NCBI GenBank assembly: GCA_005791535.1
Contig: SXWH01000013.1
Span: forward strand, 1 to 64,000
From: Verrucomicrobiaceae bacterium
GTDB lineage: Bacteria > Verrucomicrobiota > Verrucomicrobiia > Chthoniobacterales > Chthoniobacteraceae
DNA length: 64,000 bases
Direction of reading: 5' to 3'
A model generated the notes under the pieces. The model did no database searches and was not told the DNA's origin. It worked only from the letters and a program-made list of their open reading frames with translations. Positions 50,391-63,275 of the stretch are shown here, piece after piece (the stretch's first letter is position 1; each line of letters begins with the position of its first letter). The position numbers and the translations under genes are program-made.

Positions 50391-51470
50391 AACATAGTCA
50401 TCGCTGCCGGAGGTACTGGCGGTCACTTGTTTCCTGGCATTGCCGTGGGCGAGGTTCTTTTGGCACGCGGACATCGGGTGATGCTCCTCATCTCCGAGAA
50501 GGAAATCGACGCGACGGCGACCCGGGATTGCGACGGGTTTCGAATCGAGAAAGTTGTGGGCGAGGGATTGCAGTCGAAATCGCCGCTCGCGCTGTTGCGA
50601 TTTTGGATGAAGTTGCGGGCGGCAAAGAAACGATGCGCGCAACTTTACGCCGACTTTAATCCGGCGGCGGTGCTCGGCATGGGCGGATTCACATGCTTTG
50701 CGCCAATCGTGACCGGACGGCGCAGGGGAATCCCCACCTTCGTCCATGAGTCGAACGCGATTCCGGGGCGCGCGAATAAACTGAACGCGCGTTACGTGAC
50801 AAGGGTGCTCCTCGGTTTTGAGGCGTGCCGGCCTCATTTCAGAAACGCCACATGCGAAGTAGTAGGAACTCCAATCCGAAGCGCATTGCGCAAGGCGGTA
50901 AACAAGTGCGAGGCACGCGAGGCGTTCGGTCTGGAACGCGACAAATGCACATTACTCGTAATGGGCGGAAGTCAGGGCGCGAGCGGGATCAACAAACGTT
51001 TCGTCGAAGCTCTTCCTTCGCTCGCGGGGCGGGCCCAGGCGATTCACATTACGGGCAAGGCTGATGAACTGACGACCCGCAATGCATACGTGAACGCGGG
51101 TATTCCGGCGTTCGTTGCGCCGTTTCATCACGCCATGCAGGACGCATATGCGGCTGCAGACCTCGCCATCGCGCGGAGTGGCGCAGCAAGCCTTACAGAG
51201 CTTTCGCATTTTGGCCTGCCGTCGGTACTGATTCCGTATCCATTCGCAGCGGACGACCACCAGACTGCAAATGCGCGAATCTTTTCCGAAGCAAGTGCCG
51301 GCATTCTGCTGCCGGAAAGCCAGGCCGGAGGTGGTGCTCTCGCAGCGACTGTTGCAGGTATTCTCGATACACCGGGACGGCTCGCCGAAATGAGCGCAAA
51401 CTCCCGCAAGCTCGCGGTGGACGACGCCGCAGAACGCGTCACAGACTTGATTTTGAGGCACGGCACATGA
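50388..51470 (+). CDS. murG: UDP-GlcNAc:lipid I N-acetylglucosaminyltransferase
   Basis: 360 residues from GTG 50388. GT28 motifs: IVIAAGGTGGHLFPGIAVGEVL, LGMGGFTCFAPIVTG, PTFVHESNAIPGRANKL, LVMGGSQGASGIN, AADLAIARSGAASLTELSHFGLPSVLIPYPFAADDHQ. It converts lipid I to lipid II on the inner face of the membrane. It overlaps the murC-murB start by 4 bp. Confidence 0.96.
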   Translation: MNIVIAAGGTGGHLFPGIAVGEVLLARGHRVMLLISEKEIDATATRDCDGFRIEKVVGEGLQSKSPLALLRFWMKLRAAKKRCAQLYADFNPAAVLGMGGFTCFAPIVTGRRRGIPTFVHESNAIPGRANKLNARYVTRVLLGFEACRPHFRNATCEVVGTPIRSALRKAVNKCEAREAFGLERDKCTLLVMGGSQGASGINKRFVEALPSLAGRAQAIHITGKADELTTRNAYVNAGIPAFVAPFHHAMQDAYAAADLAIARSGAASLTELSHFGLPSVLIPYPFAADDHQTANARIFSEASAGILLPESQAGGGALAATVAGILDTPGRLAEMSANSRKLAVDDAAERVTDLILRHGT

Positions 51471-53776
51471 GTTTCGATACGTCCAAACTTGCTTCATTTC
51501 TGACATCCGGCAGCCGGCGGATTCACCTCATCGGCGTTGCAGGCTCGGGGATGAGCGGAATCGCGGGCCTCTGCATTTCGCTCGGGCATCGCGTGAGCGG
51601 CAGCGACAAGGCGACGACGATTGAGACGCAGCGGTTGCAGGGCGTGGGGTTGGATTTTTCGTCGCCCTCGAATCCCGAGAAGGTCTCCGATGCGGAACTC
51701 GTGATCTACTCGTCGGCGATCAAGCCCGGGCATCCGGATTTCGATGCGGCGAAAAACAACGGAATCGCGCTGGTGCGGCGGGCCGATGGGCTCGCAGCGA
51801 TCATGGGATTGAAGAAGGGAATCGTGATTGCCGGCATGCACGGCAAGACCACAACGAGTTCCATGGCAGCTCACGTGCTGAGGGTTGGTGGACTCCGGCC
51901 TTCCCACTACGTTGGCGCTGAGATTCCCATCCTCGGGGTAAATGCGCTTTGGGATTCGGGGGGCGAGTATTTCGTCGCCGAGGCCGATGAAAGCGATGGC
52001 ACGATCGTCGGCTACTATCCGGAGCACTCGATCATCCTGAACATCGAAGAGGAGCATCTCGACTTTTACGCGGACCTCGCGGCGATCGAGGCGGCGTTCA
52101 CGCAGCTTTTGTCACACACGAGAGGGAAGGTTTTCTACTGCGCCGACGACCCGAATGCGACACGGCTAGTCACCACCAAACACCACCAGCCGATCGCATT
52201 CGGGGAGTCGTGCGCAGCGCTTTACCGATTCGAGGCGGTTCACACGAAAGACTTCCAGTCGCACTTCGTGGTTACGCGTGCGGGCGAGCCGCTCGGAGCC
52301 GTGACGCTGAACGTCCCCGGTCGACACAATATCAGCAACGCCACCGCGGTGATTGCGCTGGCTACGGAACTCGGCGTGCCATTTCCAAAAATCGCAGAAG
52401 CCCTTGAGTCATTCCGTGGTGCGAAGCGGCGATTTGAGATCAAGTACCGCAGCGAGCGGTTCATGTTTGTGGACGATTACGGGCATCATCCCACCGAGAT
52501 TCGCGCGACTCTCGCCAGTGCAAGGCAGACGGGACGCAGGCGGATCATCGCGATGTTCCAGCCTCATCGATATACCCGCACGCAGGCGCTGAAGGATGAA
52601 TTTGGACGCGCGTTTGAGGACGCTGACGTGGTCGTGGTGGCAGACGTTTATGCTGCAAGCGAGCAGCCGATTCCGGGGGTCAGCGGGCAGACGATCGTTG
52701 ACGCGATAGCGCGGCAGACGGGCCAGGAAGGATGTTCTTTTCAGCCGAAGCGCGAGCAAATCGCCCTCGATGTGGGCCGGATCATTGAACCCGGCGACCT
52801 CGTGATTTCACTCGGTGCAGGCAACATTCACGAACAGGGAGCCGCGTTGGCAAAAGACGTAGCCGTGCTTGATGCGCTGTGTGGCGTCATGGGGGCCGGG
52901 ACTATCAAACTTTACGAACCGCTCGCGAAACACACGACAATGCGAATCGGCGGACCCGCGCAGTTCTGGGCTGAACCGGAGACCGAGGAGGGTTTTGCGC
53001 GGTTGGTGCGCTATTGCACCGAAAATCAAGTCTCGTTGTTTGTGATGGGACGCGGCTCAAATTTGCTCGTCCGCGATGGCGGAATCCGCGGCGTCGTCGT
53101 GCATCTGGCGCGCGGAGAATTTAAACGTCTGGAAGTGCACGGTGGTCTTATTTCCGCGGGCGTCGGCGTGAAGCAGCGTGAACTTGCGATTGCTGCGCGG
53201 GATGCCCAACTCGGTGGGTTCGAGTGGTTCGAGGGAATTCCCGGGAATGTCGGCGGCGCGCTTCGTATGAATGCCGGCGCAATGGGCGGGGAGACTTTCC
53301 GGCAGGTAGTAAGTGTGCGGTTTGTGGATTCGAAGGGAGAGTTTCACACCCGCACACCTGCGGAGATGGAAGTGCACTATCGCGATGTTGCGACGCTCGC
53401 GCGGAACTATGCTGTGAGCGCGATATTTCGCGGCTCGCCAGCGCCAGCCGACGAGATCGCGCGGAAGCTTGAGGAGAGCCAGCAGAAGCGCCGGACCTCG
53501 CAGCCGCGGGAATCGAGCGCCGGATGTATCTTTAAAAACCCGGGACCAGTGCCCGCGGGAAAACTGATCGAGGAACTCGGGCTCAAAGGCACACGCGTCG
53601 GCGGGGCAAAGGTTTCGGAAGTGCATGGCAACTTCATCGTGAATGACGGTAATGCAACCGCAGCGGACGTCCTCGGGCTCATCGAGCTCATCAAGGAAAA
53701 AACCCGCTCTGCGCGCGGAATTGAATTGCATACCGAGGTGCAGATTGTGGGCGAGGAGAAGGGAATTTACGGATGA
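51467..53776 (+). CDS. murC/murB: MurC-MurB fusion: UDP-MurNAc-L-alanine ligase plus UDP-enolpyruvylglucosamine reductase
   Basis: 769 residues in one frame. Residues 1 to about 470 are MurC: HLIGVAGSGMSGIAGL, GMHGKTTTSSMAAHVL, EADESDGTIVGYYPE, FVDDYGHHPTEI and MFQPHRYTRTQ. Residues about 480-769 are MurB: HTTMRIGGPAQFWAEPETEE, VMGRGSNLLVRDGGIRGVVV, FEWFEGIPGNVGGALRMNAGAMGGE and ESSAGCIFKNPGPVPAGKLIEE. The GC in AGCIFKNP replaces the usual catalytic Ser with Cys. The short C-terminal part is of the type II MurB kind. The fusion couples synthesis of UDP-MurNAc with addition of L-Ala. Confidence 0.96.
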   Translation: MSFDTSKLASFLTSGSRRIHLIGVAGSGMSGIAGLCISLGHRVSGSDKATTIETQRLQGVGLDFSSPSNPEKVSDAELVIYSSAIKPGHPDFDAAKNNGIALVRRADGLAAIMGLKKGIVIAGMHGKTTTSSMAAHVLRVGGLRPSHYVGAEIPILGVNALWDSGGEYFVAEADESDGTIVGYYPEHSIILNIEEEHLDFYADLAAIEAAFTQLLSHTRGKVFYCADDPNATRLVTTKHHQPIAFGESCAALYRFEAVHTKDFQSHFVVTRAGEPLGAVTLNVPGRHNISNATAVIALATELGVPFPKIAEALESFRGAKRRFEIKYRSERFMFVDDYGHHPTEIRATLASARQTGRRRIIAMFQPHRYTRTQALKDEFGRAFEDADVVVVADVYAASEQPIPGVSGQTIVDAIARQTGQEGCSFQPKREQIALDVGRIIEPGDLVISLGAGNIHEQGAALAKDVAVLDALCGVMGAGTIKLYEPLAKHTTMRIGGPAQFWAEPETEEGFARLVRYCTENQVSLFVMGRGSNLLVRDGGIRGVVVHLARGEFKRLEVHGGLISAGVGVKQRELAIAARDAQLGGFEWFEGIPGNVGGALRMNAGAMGGETFRQVVSVRFVDSKGEFHTRTPAEMEVHYRDVATLARNYAVSAIFRGSPAPADEIARKLEESQQKRRTSQPRESSAGCIFKNPGPVPAGKLIEELGLKGTRVGGAKVSEVHGNFIVNDGNATAADVLGLIELIKEKTRSARGIELHTEVQIVGEEKGIYG

Positions 53777-54760: not shown

Positions 54761-55831
54761 ATGAGCCGCCGCCGCACTCGAAACACCCGGATGACACCAG
54801 CCCGCCAGCGCAAGAAGGAGCTGTTCGCGGAAGTGAACGCCCGCGGCGGCCGGGAGCGTTGGTCGCGACTCGGGATTTGGGTCGGGCGTTTGTTGCGGTG
54901 TTCGGTCGCGCTGGGCCTGATTTACGGAATCTACGTCGGCGCGACGCTGGGATATAAAAACCTTTTTTGGGAAAATCCGGATTACGCGTTGAAGGATGTA
55001 TCCGTGAAGACGGACGGTTCCTCGCTGACGCGGGAGCAGGTGATTGCCACGGCTGGTCTGAAATTTGGAAAGAACATTCTTTCCTACAGCCTGCCGGATT
55101 TGAAAGAAGCGCTCCGGAAGCTGCCGCAGGTTGAGGTTGCGGAAGTGCGGAGGTATCTGCCGAACCGTATGGAGATTCGTATCAAGGAGCGAAAACCCGT
55201 TGCCTGGGTGACGGCGAGTGCTGCGGACGATGTGCGGACAAATCAAAAAAGCTATCTCGTGGACATTCAGGGGGAATGGTTCCGGCCGCGCCTTGTGGTG
55301 CACGAATTCGAAACGCTGCCGGTCATCACGGGGGTTGTTACGGACAATCTTCAACCGCGCGAGGCAATCCGGAGCGAGGAGTTGATGGCGGCTCTGGAAC
55401 TGATCGAGAAGAACACCAAGTCACCGCGTTTTCAGGTGCGCACAATCGATATCTCGAAAGGCTACTGCGTGATCGTGAAGAGCCAGGACGGCATGGAGAT
55501 TACCTTTGGGCTTTCCGATATCGACGCGCAGCTCGCGAAGCTCGATGAGGTGCGGAAGCTTGAGCGTTCCCTCTCGCAACAGGTGGCGTCCACAAACTTG
55601 ATCCCGTCGCGGAACATTCCAATCCGCTGGGTCCCGCCGCTGCCGCCGGAGGATGCGGATTTTCCTCCGAAGCCGGTCGAGACAGCCAAACCCGCGACGA
55701 AGGACTTGAAGGCGAAGCCGGTTGTCAAAAAGCCCGAGCCGAAAAAAGAGTCCAAGCCGGAACCGAAGAAGGAGCCGAAGAAGTCGAATCCCGACAACGG
55801 CCTCTACAAACCATTTTTGATGCGCGCGTAA
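54761..55831 (+). CDS. ftsQ: Division protein FtsQ with a Lys/Pro-rich C-terminal tail
   Basis: 356 residues. A basic cytoplasmic start leads to one membrane helix (LLRCSVALGLIYGIYVGATL), then the POTRA domain (ALKDVSVKTDGSSLTREQVI, KLPQVEVAEVRRYLPNRMEIRIKERKPVAWV) and the FtsQ beta domain (YLVDIQGEWFRPRL, LPVITGVVTDNLQ). The last 60 residues are low-complexity Lys/Pro/Glu (KPEPKKESKPEPKKEPKKS), periplasmic and unusual. FtsQ bridges early and late division proteins. Confidence 0.9.
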   Translation: MSRRRTRNTRMTPARQRKKELFAEVNARGGRERWSRLGIWVGRLLRCSVALGLIYGIYVGATLGYKNLFWENPDYALKDVSVKTDGSSLTREQVIATAGLKFGKNILSYSLPDLKEALRKLPQVEVAEVRRYLPNRMEIRIKERKPVAWVTASAADDVRTNQKSYLVDIQGEWFRPRLVVHEFETLPVITGVVTDNLQPREAIRSEELMAALELIEKNTKSPRFQVRTIDISKGYCVIVKSQDGMEITFGLSDIDAQLAKLDEVRKLERSLSQQVASTNLIPSRNIPIRWVPPLPPEDADFPPKPVETAKPATKDLKAKPVVKKPEPKKESKPEPKKEPKKSNPDNGLYKPFLMRA

Positions 55832-57039
55832 TGGCCCGGGAAGAAATAGTCGTGGGAATGGAGATCGGCACATCGAAAGTGTGTGTCGTCGTTGGTGAGA
55901 TCAAATCTGATCGGAGCATCAAGATCGTCGGCGTCGGTGAAGCGGCATCCCGTGGCGTGCGGAAGGGAGAGATTGTTGATTTCGACATCTGCGGAAAATG
56001 CATTCGCGAAGCCGTGGTGGAGGCTGAGGAGAAGAGCGACGTTCTCATCAAGAACATCTATCTCGGAATCACCGGAGCTCACATGGAGAGCTTCAACAGC
56101 CGTGGCGTGCACTCATTGCCGGACGACCGCGACGAGATTGGCCCGGAGGACGTGGAGGCTGTGCAGGAAAAGGCGCGCGATATTTCTGTGTCGTCCCAGA
56201 ACAGTTTCGTGCACACGATTCTTCAGCACTACTACGTCGATGGCAACGAAGGCGTGATCAATCCAATCGGCATGTTTGGCCGCACGCTGGAGGCTGATTT
56301 TCACATTGTTCACGGCGTCACGAGCCGGATTAAGAACATCATCCGCTGCGTGAAGCAGCTCGATCTGGAGGTCGAGGATATCGTTTTTAACCCGTACGCG
56401 GCAGCCCAGGTTGTGCTCGACCCGCAGCACAAAACGATTGGAGCGCTGATGATCGACATGGGCGGCGGAACGACGGGATACATGGCCTACGTGGATGGTG
56501 CGGCGAAACATAGCGGCGTGCTCGGGCTCGGCGGCGATCATATTACGAATGATCTCTCCATCGGTTTGCGCATCCCAATGGCGAAGGCGGAGAAATTGAA
56601 AATCGAACACGGGTGTGTGACGCTTGGAAACTCCGGTGCCGGCGACGTGATTTCGCTTCGTGATGAACACGGATTTGCAGGCCGCGAGATCGAGCGGGAG
56701 ACCTTGAATACGATTATTCACCTTCGTGTTCGCGAAACTCTGGAGCTTCTGAAGAAGCGTTTGATCAACGAGAACGTGCTCGATTTGCTCGGCGCGGGAA
56801 TTGTTCTGACGGGCGGCAGTTCGATGCTCCGTGGTGTGAAAAATCTGGCCGAGGAAGTGTTCGGGTTGCCGGTGCAACTCACGCGCCCGCCAAACCTGGC
56901 CGGCAACGTTTCGGCATTTGAAAATCCGAAGTACTCAACGGCGATTGGGCTCGTGAAGTGGGCTCAAGCTACGTTCGAGCTCGAGAACAAGGGCTTCTTC
57001 GGCCGGATTCGCGACTGGCTTGTGTCGGGAAGGAAATAG
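55831..57039 (+). CDS. ftsA: Division protein FtsA
   Basis: 402 residues; its ATG overlaps the ftsQ stop by 1 bp. Actin-like motifs: VVGMEIGTSKVCVVVGEI (phosphate 1), GEIVDFDICGKCIREAV, DISVSSQNSFVHTILQHYYVDG, ALMIDMGGGTTGYMAYVDGA (phosphate 2) and GIVLTGGSSMLRGVKNLAEEVFG. The C-terminus GFFGRIRDWLVSGRK is an amphipathic membrane-targeting helix. It tethers FtsZ to the membrane. Confidence 0.96.
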   Translation: MAREEIVVGMEIGTSKVCVVVGEIKSDRSIKIVGVGEAASRGVRKGEIVDFDICGKCIREAVVEAEEKSDVLIKNIYLGITGAHMESFNSRGVHSLPDDRDEIGPEDVEAVQEKARDISVSSQNSFVHTILQHYYVDGNEGVINPIGMFGRTLEADFHIVHGVTSRIKNIIRCVKQLDLEVEDIVFNPYAAAQVVLDPQHKTIGALMIDMGGGTTGYMAYVDGAAKHSGVLGLGGDHITNDLSIGLRIPMAKAEKLKIEHGCVTLGNSGAGDVISLRDEHGFAGREIERETLNTIIHLRVRETLELLKKRLINENVLDLLGAGIVLTGGSSMLRGVKNLAEEVFGLPVQLTRPPNLAGNVSAFENPKYSTAIGLVKWAQATFELENKGFFGRIRDWLVSGRK

Positions 57040-57058: not shown

Positions 57059-58294
57059 ATGATCGAACTGCCAAGGACACCGAAATCAAAGCGGCCCGTA
57101 ATCCGGATTGCGGGCGTCGGACGCTCCGGTTGTATCGTGCTGGAGGCGCTGATGGACGGTCACGTGGACGGAGCGCGATTTGTGGCGATGAATACCGATG
57201 CATCCCTCCTTGCTGCCTCGGGCGCTCGCGAGAAGGTGCAACTCGGCACACGTGGAACGGGAGCGGGGGGCGACCCGGATGAAGGCTACACTGCCGCCGA
57301 GGAGTCCGCGCAAATTGTGCGGGAGTCGATGGAGGGCGTCGATCTGCTGATTCTCTGCACCGGCCTCGGTGGCGGGACAGGAAGCGGCGCGACCCCTACG
57401 ATTGCGAACATCGCGCACGAGTGCGGTGCGACGGTCGTGGCGGTGGTCACGCTGCCATTTTCGTTCGAGGGAAAACGGCGGCGGCAGCAGGCCGAGGCTG
57501 CGCTCGAAGAGTTGTCACGGCAGGCCCGGATGGTCCTCTGCTTTGAAAATGATCGGATGTCCGATCTCGCTGGCGAGGACGCCTCGGCTCACCACGCGTT
57601 TTCTGCGGCGGACGGAGTTTTGTGCGACGCAATACGCGCGATTGTCGGGATGGTGAACGGCAGCGGACTGCTGCATGCCGGGCTCGACGAACTTTCGAAT
57701 GCATTGAGCCGCGCGGACAGCAGGTGTCTATTCGGCCACGGTTCCAGTGATTCCGGCGATCGTGCTGTGGAGGCGGTTGAGATGGCTTTGCAAAGCCCGC
57801 TGATGGACTGCGGCCAGATGCTCGCGGAGGCGCGGGACATCGTTGTGCATGTTGCTGCCGGTCCCGGTCTCACGCTCGCGGAGCTCGGAGCCGTAATGGA
57901 GCAGGTTCAGCGGCACATTAACGACCACGCCAGAATGCATCTCGGCGTCTCCGCCGATGATCGGTTCGGTGATCGGCTTGAGGTGACGATTATCTCTGCG
58001 ACCGGAAGTGATCCCGTGGAGCCCGCGCAGAAGCCCGTCCGGAGAACGCCCGTGGCGTCGGTGGTTGCAACTCCAGCACCCCAGCGCGACGCGGTTCCTG
58101 CTCCGTCACTATTCGGGGCAATCGGCGCCGATGACGACGACGATGTCCACTCGGGCGGGAAAAAGGCGAAGGTCGAGCAGATGCAATTCGAGCCGGTCAG
58201 CCGGGGGCGTTTCGAGAAGAGCGAGCCGACTATCGTGGACGGTCAGGATCTGGATATCCCGACATTTTTGCGCAAAGGATTCCGCCTGAAGTAA
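57059..58294 (+). CDS. ftsZ: Divergent FtsZ
   Basis: 411 residues from ATG 57059, last gene of the dcw operon. The tubulin GTP signature GGGTGSG lies at 104-110 and TLPFSFEGKRRRQQAE is typical. The C-terminal tail DIPTFLRKGFRLK fits the FtsA/ZipA-binding peptide, after a long disordered linker (about 325-395). Two regions are altered. The first G-loop reads GVGRSGCIVLEAL (usual GVGGGGGNAVN). The T7 loop, normally NVDFADV, reads HAGLDEL at 206-212: the Asn and first Asp are lost and the second Asp is Glu. Length and spacing match ordinary FtsZ, so it is alignable throughout. It should form the division ring, perhaps with altered GTPase. Confidence 0.93.
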   Translation: MIELPRTPKSKRPVIRIAGVGRSGCIVLEALMDGHVDGARFVAMNTDASLLAASGAREKVQLGTRGTGAGGDPDEGYTAAEESAQIVRESMEGVDLLILCTGLGGGTGSGATPTIANIAHECGATVVAVVTLPFSFEGKRRRQQAEAALEELSRQARMVLCFENDRMSDLAGEDASAHHAFSAADGVLCDAIRAIVGMVNGSGLLHAGLDELSNALSRADSRCLFGHGSSDSGDRAVEAVEMALQSPLMDCGQMLAEARDIVVHVAAGPGLTLAELGAVMEQVQRHINDHARMHLGVSADDRFGDRLEVTIISATGSDPVEPAQKPVRRTPVASVVATPAPQRDAVPAPSLFGAIGADDDDDVHSGGKKAKVEQMQFEPVSRGRFEKSEPTIVDGQDLDIPTFLRKGFRLK

Positions 58295-59216: not shown

Positions 59217-60233
59217 ATGGATGACCTCAAAAGGACAAAGACGAACCTGCTGTTGATTCTCGGATTGGGGCTGATGGTGCTGATTTGGCAGACGCAGACC
59301 AACGCGAAGCTGACCGTCTATTGCGCACACGATTCGATTTTCGCCGAGGAGGTGCTCCGCGAATTCGAGCGGCGTGAGGGGATCCCTGTTGAGGTGAAGT
59401 TTGATTCCGAGGCGACCAAATCGCTCGGTCTTGTTGAGCGCATCATTCGTGAGGACGGGCAGCCGTCTTGCGATGTTTTCTGGAACAATGAAATGCTCGG
59501 CACGCTCGATCTTGCGCGGCGCGGATTGCTAACCGAGTACAAGGGCCCCGGATGGGAGCGGACTCCGCCGCAGTGGCGGGACGACGCGGGATTGTGGGCC
59601 GGGTTTGGCGGACGCCTGCGGATGAAAATCGTGAACACGACGCGTGCCGACCATGGCGACCCAGTGGCGGGAAATGCGGCGCATTTTGCAATCGCGAAGC
59701 CGCTTTATGGCACGACGCTCACGCACTTCTCTTCGCTTTGGAGCATCTGGGGGCCGGAGCGTACAAAAGCCTGGCACTCCGATATCCGGACGGCCGGTGT
59801 GCAAGTCGTCAACGGAAACGCGGTAGTTCGGGACCTTGTAGCGTCTGGTTCCGTAGGTGCTGGCTGGACGGACTCGGATGACTATTTCAGCGCGAAGGAG
59901 GCCGGCAAGCCGGTGAATGCTGTACCGGTTTTTGCGGAGGATGGCGCGGCGATTTGCATCCCGAATACCGTAGCGATTTTGAAAGGCGCGAGCCGGCCCG
60001 ACCACGCGCGAAAACTCGCGGATTTTCTACTCTCTGCGCGGACTGAGATTCGGCTCGCGAATTCAAAGGCGAGGCAGATCCCGCTCGGCCCGCTCACCGA
60101 GGAACAGCGTGCTTCGCTGCCGGAAGAGGTTCGCGAATGGCTGCCAGCCGCAGAGCGAAGTGTCCCACTGAAGGGCATGCTCGACGCACGGAACGGGTGT
60201 CTGGACTGGCTGCGGGCGGAATACGTCAAATGA
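59217..60233 (+). CDS. ABC importer substrate-binding protein (iron(III)-type family)
   Basis: 338 residues. A hydrophobic N-terminal anchor (LLLILGLGLMVLIWQTQT) precedes the type II binding fold: LTVYCAHDSIFAEEVLREFERREGIPVEVKFDSE, CDVFWNNEMLGTLDLARRGLL, GVQVVNGNAVVRDLVASGSVGAGWTDSDDYFSAKEAGKPV and the C-terminal LRAEYVK. The family contains iron, thiamine and 2-aminoethylphosphonate binders. The paired tyrosines of ferric-binding proteins are not obvious, so the ligand is not assigned. Its stop overlaps the permease ATG by 4 bp. Confidence 0.85.
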   Translation: MDDLKRTKTNLLLILGLGLMVLIWQTQTNAKLTVYCAHDSIFAEEVLREFERREGIPVEVKFDSEATKSLGLVERIIREDGQPSCDVFWNNEMLGTLDLARRGLLTEYKGPGWERTPPQWRDDAGLWAGFGGRLRMKIVNTTRADHGDPVAGNAAHFAIAKPLYGTTLTHFSSLWSIWGPERTKAWHSDIRTAGVQVVNGNAVVRDLVASGSVGAGWTDSDDYFSAKEAGKPVNAVPVFAEDGAAICIPNTVAILKGASRPDHARKLADFLLSARTEIRLANSKARQIPLGPLTEEQRASLPEEVREWLPAAERSVPLKGMLDARNGCLDWLRAEYVK

Positions 60234-61543
60234 GCATCGCCGAAGCGACCGCGATCAGTGCCGTGCGCGCGATGTGCATGTCGGCAATTGTCTGCTTCGC
60301 GTCGATGCGCGTGACCCGCAGGTCGCTCCCTTCGCAGGCTGTGTGGCTGCTTCTCGCAGCGTTCATGATGCCGCCGATTTTGACAGGATATCATGTCGCG
60401 ACGACCCGGGCGGATGCGATTGGATGGCGGGCGGAACTGGAATACAGCGTTCTCCTTTTCCTCCGGGTTCTGCCGCTCGCTCTGCTTCTTGCTTCGCTGC
60501 ACCCGCGTCCGGGCGTTGGAGAAGGCGCGTACGCATTCGCGACGATGCGGCGGATTTCGTGGCGGGAACGGATCGCATGGAGCGTGCGCGGATGGTGGGG
60601 GGATTGCGGCGGAGTATACTGCGCGGTGTTCCTCGTGGCGTTTCAGGAATTCGATCTCGCCGCATGCATGAACGCACGGACGTGGACAGTCGCACTGTTT
60701 GATGCTCAGGCAGGCGGGCTCGCGTTGTCGGATTCGCTGCGACTCATGCTGGCGCCACTGGTTGTGGAGGTAGCGGCGATGGCGATGTTGTTTGTGCGAT
60801 GGCGTTGTGTGCGCGGTCGTCCGATGACGGATGCAAGGCCGAACGCCGGAATGATGCCGGCCGCGCTGTTTTGCATCGCGATATGCTGCACCTCGTTTCT
60901 CGCTCCTTTGCTGGCTGTTCGCGAGGGCTGGAATGGATTGTCCGCGATGCGGGAGTTCACGCTCGCGCGCGAGGTTTTCAATTCATTCCTGCTGGCGGTT
61001 GTGAGTTCCGGGATTGCGTGGTTGCTGGCCGGATGGGCGGCCCGTCACCGTCTGCGCGCCGCACTACTCGCGGTGCCGGGTTTGCTCGGTGCGCTTGTGC
61101 TCTCGCTGGTGGTGCTGGCTGTTTTCAACGCATCCCCGTTTCAAATCCTCCGCGCGTCGCCGATTCCGGTCCTATCGGCGATGGTGCTCGGTTTGATGCC
61201 GGCGGCGCTTTTCGTCCGATACATCATCCGGCTGAATGCGGCTACCGAGGCGGCTTTCGCGGCGGAGTCGATGGGAGAACGGAGCATCAATTGGGTGCTG
61301 CGCAGCCGGCCTGCTTTGCTCGGCGGTGTGCTGCTGTTCGTTCAGGCTTACGGGGACTTTACTGCGAATTCCCTGCTCGCTCCTCCGGCGCTGACTTCGG
61401 CATTCTCCCGCATCTTCAATCTTATGCACTACGGTCGAACGGAAATTCTGAGCGCGCTTCTTGTTGTGACGCTTATCGTTCCGGTCGTCGCAGTCTCCGT
61501 GCTTCTTTTCATCGCCCGCTTTCATGTCTCGCGCGAACGCTGA
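60230..61543 (+). CDS. ABC importer permease, two-domain fused type
   Basis: 437 residues from ATG 60230 with about 11-12 membrane helices. It fits the iron(III)-type permease in which two copies of the inner-membrane domain are joined. The second EAA-type coupling loop is visible near residue 345-365 (AATEAAFAAESMGERSINW); the first copy near residue 105 (GEGAYAFATMRRISWRERIAW) is degenerate. It forms the membrane channel for the binding protein at 59217. It overlaps the next gene by 20 bp. Confidence 0.85.
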   Translation: MSIAEATAISAVRAMCMSAIVCFASMRVTRRSLPSQAVWLLLAAFMMPPILTGYHVATTRADAIGWRAELEYSVLLFLRVLPLALLLASLHPRPGVGEGAYAFATMRRISWRERIAWSVRGWWGDCGGVYCAVFLVAFQEFDLAACMNARTWTVALFDAQAGGLALSDSLRLMLAPLVVEVAAMAMLFVRWRCVRGRPMTDARPNAGMMPAALFCIAICCTSFLAPLLAVREGWNGLSAMREFTLAREVFNSFLLAVVSSGIAWLLAGWAARHRLRAALLAVPGLLGALVLSLVVLAVFNASPFQILRASPIPVLSAMVLGLMPAALFVRYIIRLNAATEAAFAAESMGERSINWVLRSRPALLGGVLLFVQAYGDFTANSLLAPPALTSAFSRIFNLMHYGRTEILSALLVVTLIVPVVAVSVLLFIARFHVSRER

Positions 61544-63275
61544 ACCAGTCTGGAAACTCGACGGCGTGCGACTCGGTTCGCGGCTGGATATAGACGCGCT
61601 CGAATTGGGCGCGGGCACCACCGCCGTGATTGGCTGGTCGGGCGCAGGGAAGACTTCCCTGCTCAACCTCCTCGCGGGATTTGAAAAGCCGGCGCGCGGC
61701 ACCGTGCGACGCCCGGAACGGGTTGCGTGGGTTCCGCAGTCGCATGGCCTTTGGCCGCAATCATCGGCGCGCGAGCACCTGACGCTCGTCGGCGCGACCG
61801 GGGAGCGCGCGGATGAATTACTCGCTGCGTTTGATCTCGCCGAAGTCGCTGCCGCCCATCCGGCGACGATGAGCGAAGGCGAGGCTGCGCGGCTTGCTGT
61901 TGCGCGCGCCATCGCGTCGGACATTCCGGCTTTGGTGATGGATGAGCCGCTTACCCACGTCGACCCGTCGCGGGCGGAGAAATACCGGCGCATCCTTCGG
62001 GAGCACGCGGCAGGACTGGCGCTGGTATTCTCCACGCACGAACCGGCGGACGTGCTTGCGGAGGCGGACCGGGTGATTTGTCTGGCGCAGGGAAAGGTGA
62101 TTTTTCATGGCGACGTAACGGAACTTTACGAGCGCCCGGCGTCCGAGGAGTTGATGACCTTCCTCGGCGCAGGCAACTGGATGGAGCCCGGGAATCCGTG
62201 GTTGCCGGCCGGTGTCGTGCGACCCGAACGGCTTGCACTGGAGCCGTCGGACGCCGGACATGCGGTGACCTCGTGCCGCTTCTCCGGTGCGATTGCCGCG
62301 ACGGAATTGCAGTCGGCCTCCGGCGAAACGCGTACGTTTTATCATCGTCCCGCGCGGCCGCTGGCGGCGGGTGTGCGTGTTGCGCTTCGCTTGCTGGGGC
62401 TGATGATCGCGTTCCTTCTGTGCGCATGTGGAAAGAGCGGCGAGGCTCCGGTGATTCCGGTGAAAAGCTGGCGCGCATGGACACTGCCGCCGGAAGGCGC
62501 TGTGCAGCCGACGCCACGCTCGATGACGACCGGTCCGAACGATCAGTTGGCCGTGCTCGACACGAGCGGCCGTGTGCTTGTTTACGATGAAAAGGGCGCG
62601 CTGCTGCGGCAGTGGAAGATGCTCGATGTGCAGTTTGGAAAACCCGAGGGAATCGTCTGGCTCAAGGACAACACCCTGGTCGTTTGCGACACGCATTACC
62701 ACCGGCTGGTGTGGTTCACACAGGACGGGGAACTCGTTCGCACGACCGGAAAACGCGGGCAGGGGAACGGTGAGTTCTATTTCCCGGTCGGCATCGCGAA
62801 GGATCCCGCGGAGAACCTTTATGTCTGCGAATACGGCGGGAATGACCGCATTCAGGTATTCACGAAAGACGGCGCTTTCCTCCGCGTATTTGGCAGCTCG
62901 GGAACGGGGCCGGGGCAATTCCAGCGGCCGAGCGGTCTGGCGTGGCACGACCACCGCGTGTACGTCGCCGATGCGGTGAACAATCGAATCCACATTTTCA
63001 AGGAGGACGGGACATTTGAAGGCTTGCTCGGTTCGTTTGAAATGAATCTTCCCTACGACATCACGCTCGCCGCGGACGGGGCGTTCTACATCATCGAGTA
63101 CGGTGCGGGCCGTCTTACGAAAGCGAGCACGAGCGGCGAGTTGCTTGGCCGCTACGGCACGAGTGGAACAGGCGAGGGGAACTTCGCAACGCCGTGGGGG
63201 CTCACGGTTGATTCCAAAATGCGCATCCACGTTGCCGATACGAAAAACCGCCGGCTCGTTACGCTCGGGCTTTGA
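61524..63275 (+). CDS. ABC ATPase fused in frame to an NHL-repeat lipoprotein
   Basis: 583 residues with no stop between two unlike parts. Residues 1 to about 285 are an ABC importer ATPase: Walker A GWSGAGKTS, Q-loop WVPQSHGLWPQ, signature MSEGEAARLAVARA, Walker B ALVMDEPLTHVD, H-loop STHEP, then a TOBE-like end (PAGVVRPERLALEP to GVRVALRL). Residues about 284-305 (VRVALRLLGLMIAFLLCACGKS) read as a complete lipoprotein signal with lipobox LCAC. The rest is an NHL six-bladed propeller (GKPEGIVWLKDNTLVVCD, YFPVGIAKDPAENLYVCEYG, FQRPSGLAWHDHRVYVADAV, TPWGLTVDSKMRIHVADTKN). It may be a true transmembrane fusion or two genes read from nested starts. Confidence 0.85.
   Translation: MSRANAEPVWKLDGVRLGSRLDIDALELGAGTTAVIGWSGAGKTSLLNLLAGFEKPARGTVRRPERVAWVPQSHGLWPQSSAREHLTLVGATGERADELLAAFDLAEVAAAHPATMSEGEAARLAVARAIASDIPALVMDEPLTHVDPSRAEKYRRILREHAAGLALVFSTHEPADVLAEADRVICLAQGKVIFHGDVTELYERPASEELMTFLGAGNWMEPGNPWLPAGVVRPERLALEPSDAGHAVTSCRFSGAIAATELQSASGETRTFYHRPARPLAAGVRVALRLLGLMIAFLLCACGKSGEAPVIPVKSWRAWTLPPEGAVQPTPRSMTTGPNDQLAVLDTSGRVLVYDEKGALLRQWKMLDVQFGKPEGIVWLKDNTLVVCDTHYHRLVWFTQDGELVRTTGKRGQGNGEFYFPVGIAKDPAENLYVCEYGGNDRIQVFTKDGAFLRVFGSSGTGPGQFQRPSGLAWHDHRVYVADAVNNRIHIFKEDGTFEGLLGSFEMNLPYDITLAADGAFYIIEYGAGRLTKASTSGELLGRYGTSGTGEGNFATPWGLTVDSKMRIHVADTKNRRLVTLGL
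62373..62429 (+). other. Internal GTG start and lipoprotein signal at the ATPase/NHL junction
   Basis: GTG 62373 would start a 300-residue lipoprotein MRVALRLLGLMIAFLLCAC in the same frame as the ATPase. TGATGA at 62401-62406 in the +1 frame would be the natural stop of an ATPase read one base away, overlapping ATG 62403 (the MIAFLL start). This pattern is what a one-base indel between two coupled genes would leave. Confidence 0.5.

Follow-up and report, generated by a model that had tools for sequence, protein, structure and literature searches.

The T7 synergy loop of FtsZ belongs to the textbook account of the active site in bacterial division. The ftsZ gene described here raises the question of whether a protein that lacks two of the three key residues of this loop can be the working division FtsZ of its cell. 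The gene lies in a window of 64,000 nucleotides (the whole stretch of DNA that was analysed) from a verrucomicrobial genome. A first-pass annotation of the window had read the loop as HAGLDEL, with the Asn and the first Asp gone and the second Asp replaced by Glu, and the gap-free alignment of the window FtsZ (GLLHAGLDELSN) with that of P. aeruginosa (GMINVDFADVKT) bears this reading out. With residues numbered, here and below, as in E. coli FtsZ, the loop differs from the E. coli sequence NVDFADV by the changes N207H, D209G, A211D and D212E, with no gap. A shifted yet intact NxDxxD motif, a possibility which the annotation had itself raised, is ruled out by the ungapped alignment together with a search for NxDxxD/E through the whole window FtsZ protein, which found no occurrence.

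In filament structures of S. aureus FtsZ, D210 (the equivalent of D209) swings and positions the attacking water, D213 and R143 (D212 and R142) supply the chemical environment, N208 (N207) touches a K+ ion and Q48 (position 47) locks that ion; the substitutions N208L, D210N and D213N each abolish assembly (PMC8936486). The K+ ligands of FtsZ are described also in PMC10333351. The D209A mutant of E. coli FtsZ forms aggregates in yeast, not filaments (PMC3684127), while D212G, whose GTPase activity is about one tenth or less, still assembles rings, but static ones (PMC7320174). The loss of assembly in S. aureus N208L and D210N and the aggregation of E. coli D209A lead by extrapolation to the expectation that the window FtsZ should not work.

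The window FtsZ lacks the canonical two-aspartate motif NxDxxD but retains the tubulin signature and R142 (Table 1), and its frame of 411 residues contains no internal stops. It matches the Pfam families Tubulin (2.2e-34; 119.8 bits against a cut-off of 33) and FtsZ_C (2.1e-17; 63.6 bits against a cut-off of 27). Its score of 236 bits with TIGR00065, the NCBI ftsZ equivalog model, falls below the cut-off of 295.2, a threshold that just 67 of the 385 class genomes pass. An AlphaFold model, for which an alignment of 68 sequences was the input, has the FtsZ fold, with pLDDT values mostly above 90 in the core and of 83-85 around T7, and its comparison with the FtsZ of E. coli, P. aeruginosa, S. 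aureus and B. subtilis gives Z scores of about 40. The signature GGGTGSG and the FtsA-binding tail, which had been described as intact, are both present.

Table 1. Positions, in the window, of the ftsZ gene, of its motifs and of neighbouring frames.
Feature	Position	Strand	Remarks
MurC-MurB fusion	51467..53776	+	769 aa, single open frame
ftsQ	54761..55831	+	Pfam POTRA_1, FtsQ_DivIB_C
ftsA	55831..57039	+	Pfam FtsA, SHS2_FTSA
ftsZ	57059..58294	+	411 aa; sole tubulin-family gene found in the genome
T1, first G-loop, GVGRSGCIVL	57113..57142	+	G19 and G22 kept; 20, 21, 23 and 24 changed
T2/H2, AMNTDAS	57185..57205	+	D45 kept; Ser at 47, Gln in most of the clade
T4, tubulin signature, GLGGGTGSG	57362..57388	+	
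T5, FEGKRR	57464..57481	+	E138 and R142 kept
T6, FEND	57542..57553	+	acid at 164, Pro in most other FtsZ
T7, synergy loop, GLLHAGLDEL	57665..57694	+	HAGLDEL at 57674-57694
C-terminal FtsA-binding peptide, LDIPTFLRK	58250..58276	+	
Hydrophobic frame	60137..61543	+	468 aa, no Pfam match
ABC ATPase joined to NHL-repeat propeller	61524..63275	+	one frame

The first glycine loop had also been called changed, as it is, with Arg at 20, Ser at 21 and Ile at 24. The two retained glycines are near-invariant in the phylum, while the four altered positions are variable across it, with Asn, Ser, His or Thr at 20 in many sequences, and GLGRSG is found in L159. From this comparison the G-loop change is mostly lineage-specific, R20 with I24 being an alteration of the window's own lineage on a plastic loop.

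One explanation of the altered T7 loop is that the gene is a redundant or decaying copy, and that a second FtsZ, the existence of which the annotation had suggested, or another system divides the cell. Compared with its neighbour FtsA, FtsZ has indeed diverged more quickly (in the genus, the median identity is 49% for FtsZ and 64% for FtsA), which agrees with the acceleration of ftsZ evolution noted for the phylum in Methylacidiphilum and Prosthecobacter (PMC2474590). However, the search of the genome, which is 86.6% complete, yielded a single PF00091 match, a single TIGR00065 match and no second ftsZ, and a missed copy is unlikely. The frame is open, and dN/dS between close relatives in the clade is 0.05-0.24, well below 1, which indicates purifying selection. 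The gene occupies its normal place after ftsA, as had been stated, and with ftsQ and ftsA directly upstream it is the ftsZ of the dcw cluster; both this position and the FtsA-binding tail are conserved among relatives, and ftsZ is essential in V. spinosum (PMC12283558). Columns 209 and 212 belong to the better-conserved third of the positions in the protein, and among the clade relatives G209 is encoded by all four Gly codons. Redundancy or decay is therefore judged very improbable. The single copy, its place after ftsA, the FtsZ fold, the kept residues, the purifying selection and the essentiality in V. spinosum make it probable that the window gene encodes a functional FtsZ for division, with a one-acid T7 loop, and is not a decaying or spare copy.

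Several neighbouring frames deserve separate mention. The run of genes that contains ftsQ, ftsA and ftsZ also holds Ddl and a fusion of MurC with MurB, and such a fusion has been published for V. spinosum (PMC12283558). Further downstream, an ABC-transporter ATPase (with a weak TOBE match) is joined in one frame to an NHL-repeat propeller which starts with a lipobox-like stretch, LLCAC; this is either a true fusion or the result of a missing stop between two genes. The hydrophobic frame that lies between a solute-binding protein and this ATPase probably encodes the permease of the adjoining transporter.

The alignment with other verrucomicrobial FtsZ which the annotation had proposed shows that the T7 change is common to the order and to some neighbouring families, and it is thus a trait of a clade and not a peculiarity of the window genome. 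FtsZ sequences were gathered, mostly from MAG data, at the levels of genus, family, order, class and phylum, and 271 of them could be classified at both 209 and 212; family names are inferred, except that of the genomes bearing BtubB, and families are referred to by number. In the order together with families f8 and f11, position 209 is never acidic in the 106 sequences (89% have Gly), while D/E212 and R142 are each kept in 104 and D/E45 in 105. Since an acid at 209 is missing in every sequence sampled in the order, the change is more than chance. In a tree computed with the T7 columns removed (its deep branches have weak support, and some of its rows are very long), these sequences fall into a single clade of 44 rows from 18 families (SH-aLRT 99) that contains no acid at 209, and 42 of these rows have D/E212. 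A basic residue occupies position 207 in 70% of the clade, as against 30% of other sequences that lost the Asn.

Some genomes of f11 carry pairs of bacterial-tubulin genes, and one BtubB matches PDB 2btq at 8e-259, so that the BtubB-bearing genomes are Prosthecobacter-like; their FtsZ T7 loop is KLGLDDL or near it. Prosthecobacter is the genus nearest to Verrucomicrobium (PMC1845146), and judging by its family, f11, V. spinosum FtsZ would carry the same type of loop. One MAG contig titled Prosthecobacter debontii (L061; CAMDQC010000004.1, 19-720) carries an FtsZ with the T7 loop GLLHVGLDELATVL, which is that of the window genus and differs from that of the BtubB-bearing f11 genomes; its name looks wrong. 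Family f9 (L205-L208 and L210; perhaps Methylacidiphilaceae), with single-contig genomes of about 2.3 Mb, was left unclassified owing to a poor T7 alignment: its FtsZ matches the profile poorly (1e-8 to 1e-21), and no T7 motif is recognisable.

A second explanation is that the catalytic acid has been relocated, with D211, new in the clade, taking the place of D209, which would leave the loop with two acids in an altered geometry. Position 211 is acidic in 84 of the 106 sequences, the window FtsZ included, but families f3, f4, f6, f65, f68 and part of f11 have Ala, Pro, Gly, Ser or Asn there and lack D209 as well. Because several families manage without it, D211 has probably not replaced D209, and the explanation as a whole is considered improbable; the same incomplete retention singles out 212 as the acid under constraint. 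The acid at 164, present in 101 of the 106, was considered as a compensation for the loss of D209 and rejected, since most other independent losses of D209 lack P164E; on the alignment it is a marker of the clade, a single coincidence in one clade. In the bacterial tubulins examined, an Asp likewise adjoins the Asn that matches the one after position 164 (DNEAL).

Elsewhere in the class the opposite loss is observed. In families f7, f10, f14 and f15 (Opitutaceae-like by inference) N207 and D209 are kept, and position 212 is Thr, Ala, Ser, Gly or Gln. Over the 271 sequences, the 212 acid alone is present in 141, the 209 acid alone in 70, both acids in 55 and neither in 5. At first the two acids seemed never to occur together in FtsZ of the class (0 of 140); this was a sampling effect, overturned by 68 further class sequences, 24 of which keep both. 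The five sequences with neither acid (L200 and L204 of f33, L289 of f96, L076 of f1 and L201 of f6) are the candidates in this sample for an FtsZ devoid of catalytic acids in T7. Once one acid is gone, loss of the other occurs less often than expected from branch lengths, although the effect is borderline. When the tree contains the double-loss tips, p is 0.03-0.04 for irreversible losses and about 0.09 under Fitch parsimony; before the two double-loss tips were added, it was 0.0008-0.09. The Fisher p of 0.0004 is obtained with families taken as independent and overstates the exclusion. The two losses accordingly show only a tendency to exclude each other, and an exclusion without exceptions is rejected.

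These patterns bear on whether the clade FtsZ hydrolyses GTP. It is considered unlikely that the protein polymerises while being nearly dead for hydrolysis, with partner proteins dismantling the filaments and division proceeding without GTPase-driven treadmilling. The water-positioning role of the D209 equivalent in the S. aureus structures, and the static rings made by the poorly active E. coli D212G, are in its favour (PMC8936486, PMC7320174). It is difficult to reconcile, however, with the retention of D/E212 and R142 in 104 of 106 sequences and with the rarity of double acid loss (5 of 271), which together suggest a continuing need for at least one T7 acid, and S. aureus N208L and D210N block assembly itself and not hydrolysis alone. 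The slow-turnover FtsZ proposed by the first-pass annotation, of which this explanation is the strong form, is plausible as a hypothesis.

The reading that we prefer, and hold to be moderately probable, is that the window gene is the sole working division FtsZ of a Chthoniobacteraceae-type bacterium, in a clade that has lost D209 and mostly N207, and that the acid at 212 promotes hydrolysis. D209 would have been lost at or before the base of the clade, and most of its members would have lost the K+ ligand N207. The protein would still polymerise with GTP, and the remaining D/E212, with R142 and D45, would promote hydrolysis in the next subunit, probably at a rate below that of E. coli FtsZ; a basic residue at 207 (His in the window FtsZ) may take over the part of the K+ ion. 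A bolder form of this reading, in which the clade FtsZ hydrolyses through D/E212 alone, lacking the water-positioning D209 and with a basic 207 in place of K+, the Opitutaceae-like FtsZ hydrolyses through D209 alone, and the two acids are alternatives and not an obligate pair, is possible but doubtful.

The high divergence of verrucomicrobial FtsZ is already recognised in the literature (PMC1845146, PMC9871819, PMC12283558). No paper was found on the T7 pattern in verrucomicrobial FtsZ, in a search that did not extend to Pilhofer 2007 and 2008, and none on the biochemistry of verrucomicrobial FtsZ or on a natural T7-defective FtsZ of the phylum; the words loop, catalytic, Asp and GTPase are all absent from the text of PMC1845146. 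The T7 pattern is therefore new as far as checked. Its importance is that evolution has removed two of the three key T7 residues across an order, and that the gene concerned is essential in a relative. If the clade FtsZ hydrolyses GTP, then the usual assignment of the catalytic residue is not general; if it does not, then GTPase-driven treadmilling is not a universal basis of division. The occurrence in one phylum of natural FtsZ with D209 only and with D212 only makes the question of the catalytic residues directly testable.

Among known systems, the FtsZ of Nitrosopumilus maritimus is also a natural FtsZ without NVDFAD, but unlike the window FtsZ it lacks the GTP-binding signature and does not polymerise in yeast, and the organism probably divides by Cdv proteins (PMC3684127). 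VerFtsZ of V. spinosum, from the same phylum, is likewise divergent, carries GGGTGSG and belongs to a dcw cluster, and its family f11, as sampled, also has Gly at 209; it differs in its length of 673 residues, with a long C-terminal extension (PMC1845146, PMC12283558). Canonical FtsZ, as in E. coli and S. aureus, shares with the window FtsZ the fold, the tubulin signature, D45, E138, R142, N165, the C-terminal peptide and the gene order ftsQ-ftsA-ftsZ, and is set apart from it by the window protein's lack of N207 and D209, its Glu at 212 and its score below the TIGR00065 cut-off. The Glu at 212 is shared with alpha-tubulin, in which E254, at the position of D212, activates hydrolysis in the next subunit; tubulin, unlike the window FtsZ, retains an Asp at the position of D209, and FtsZ is a homopolymer.
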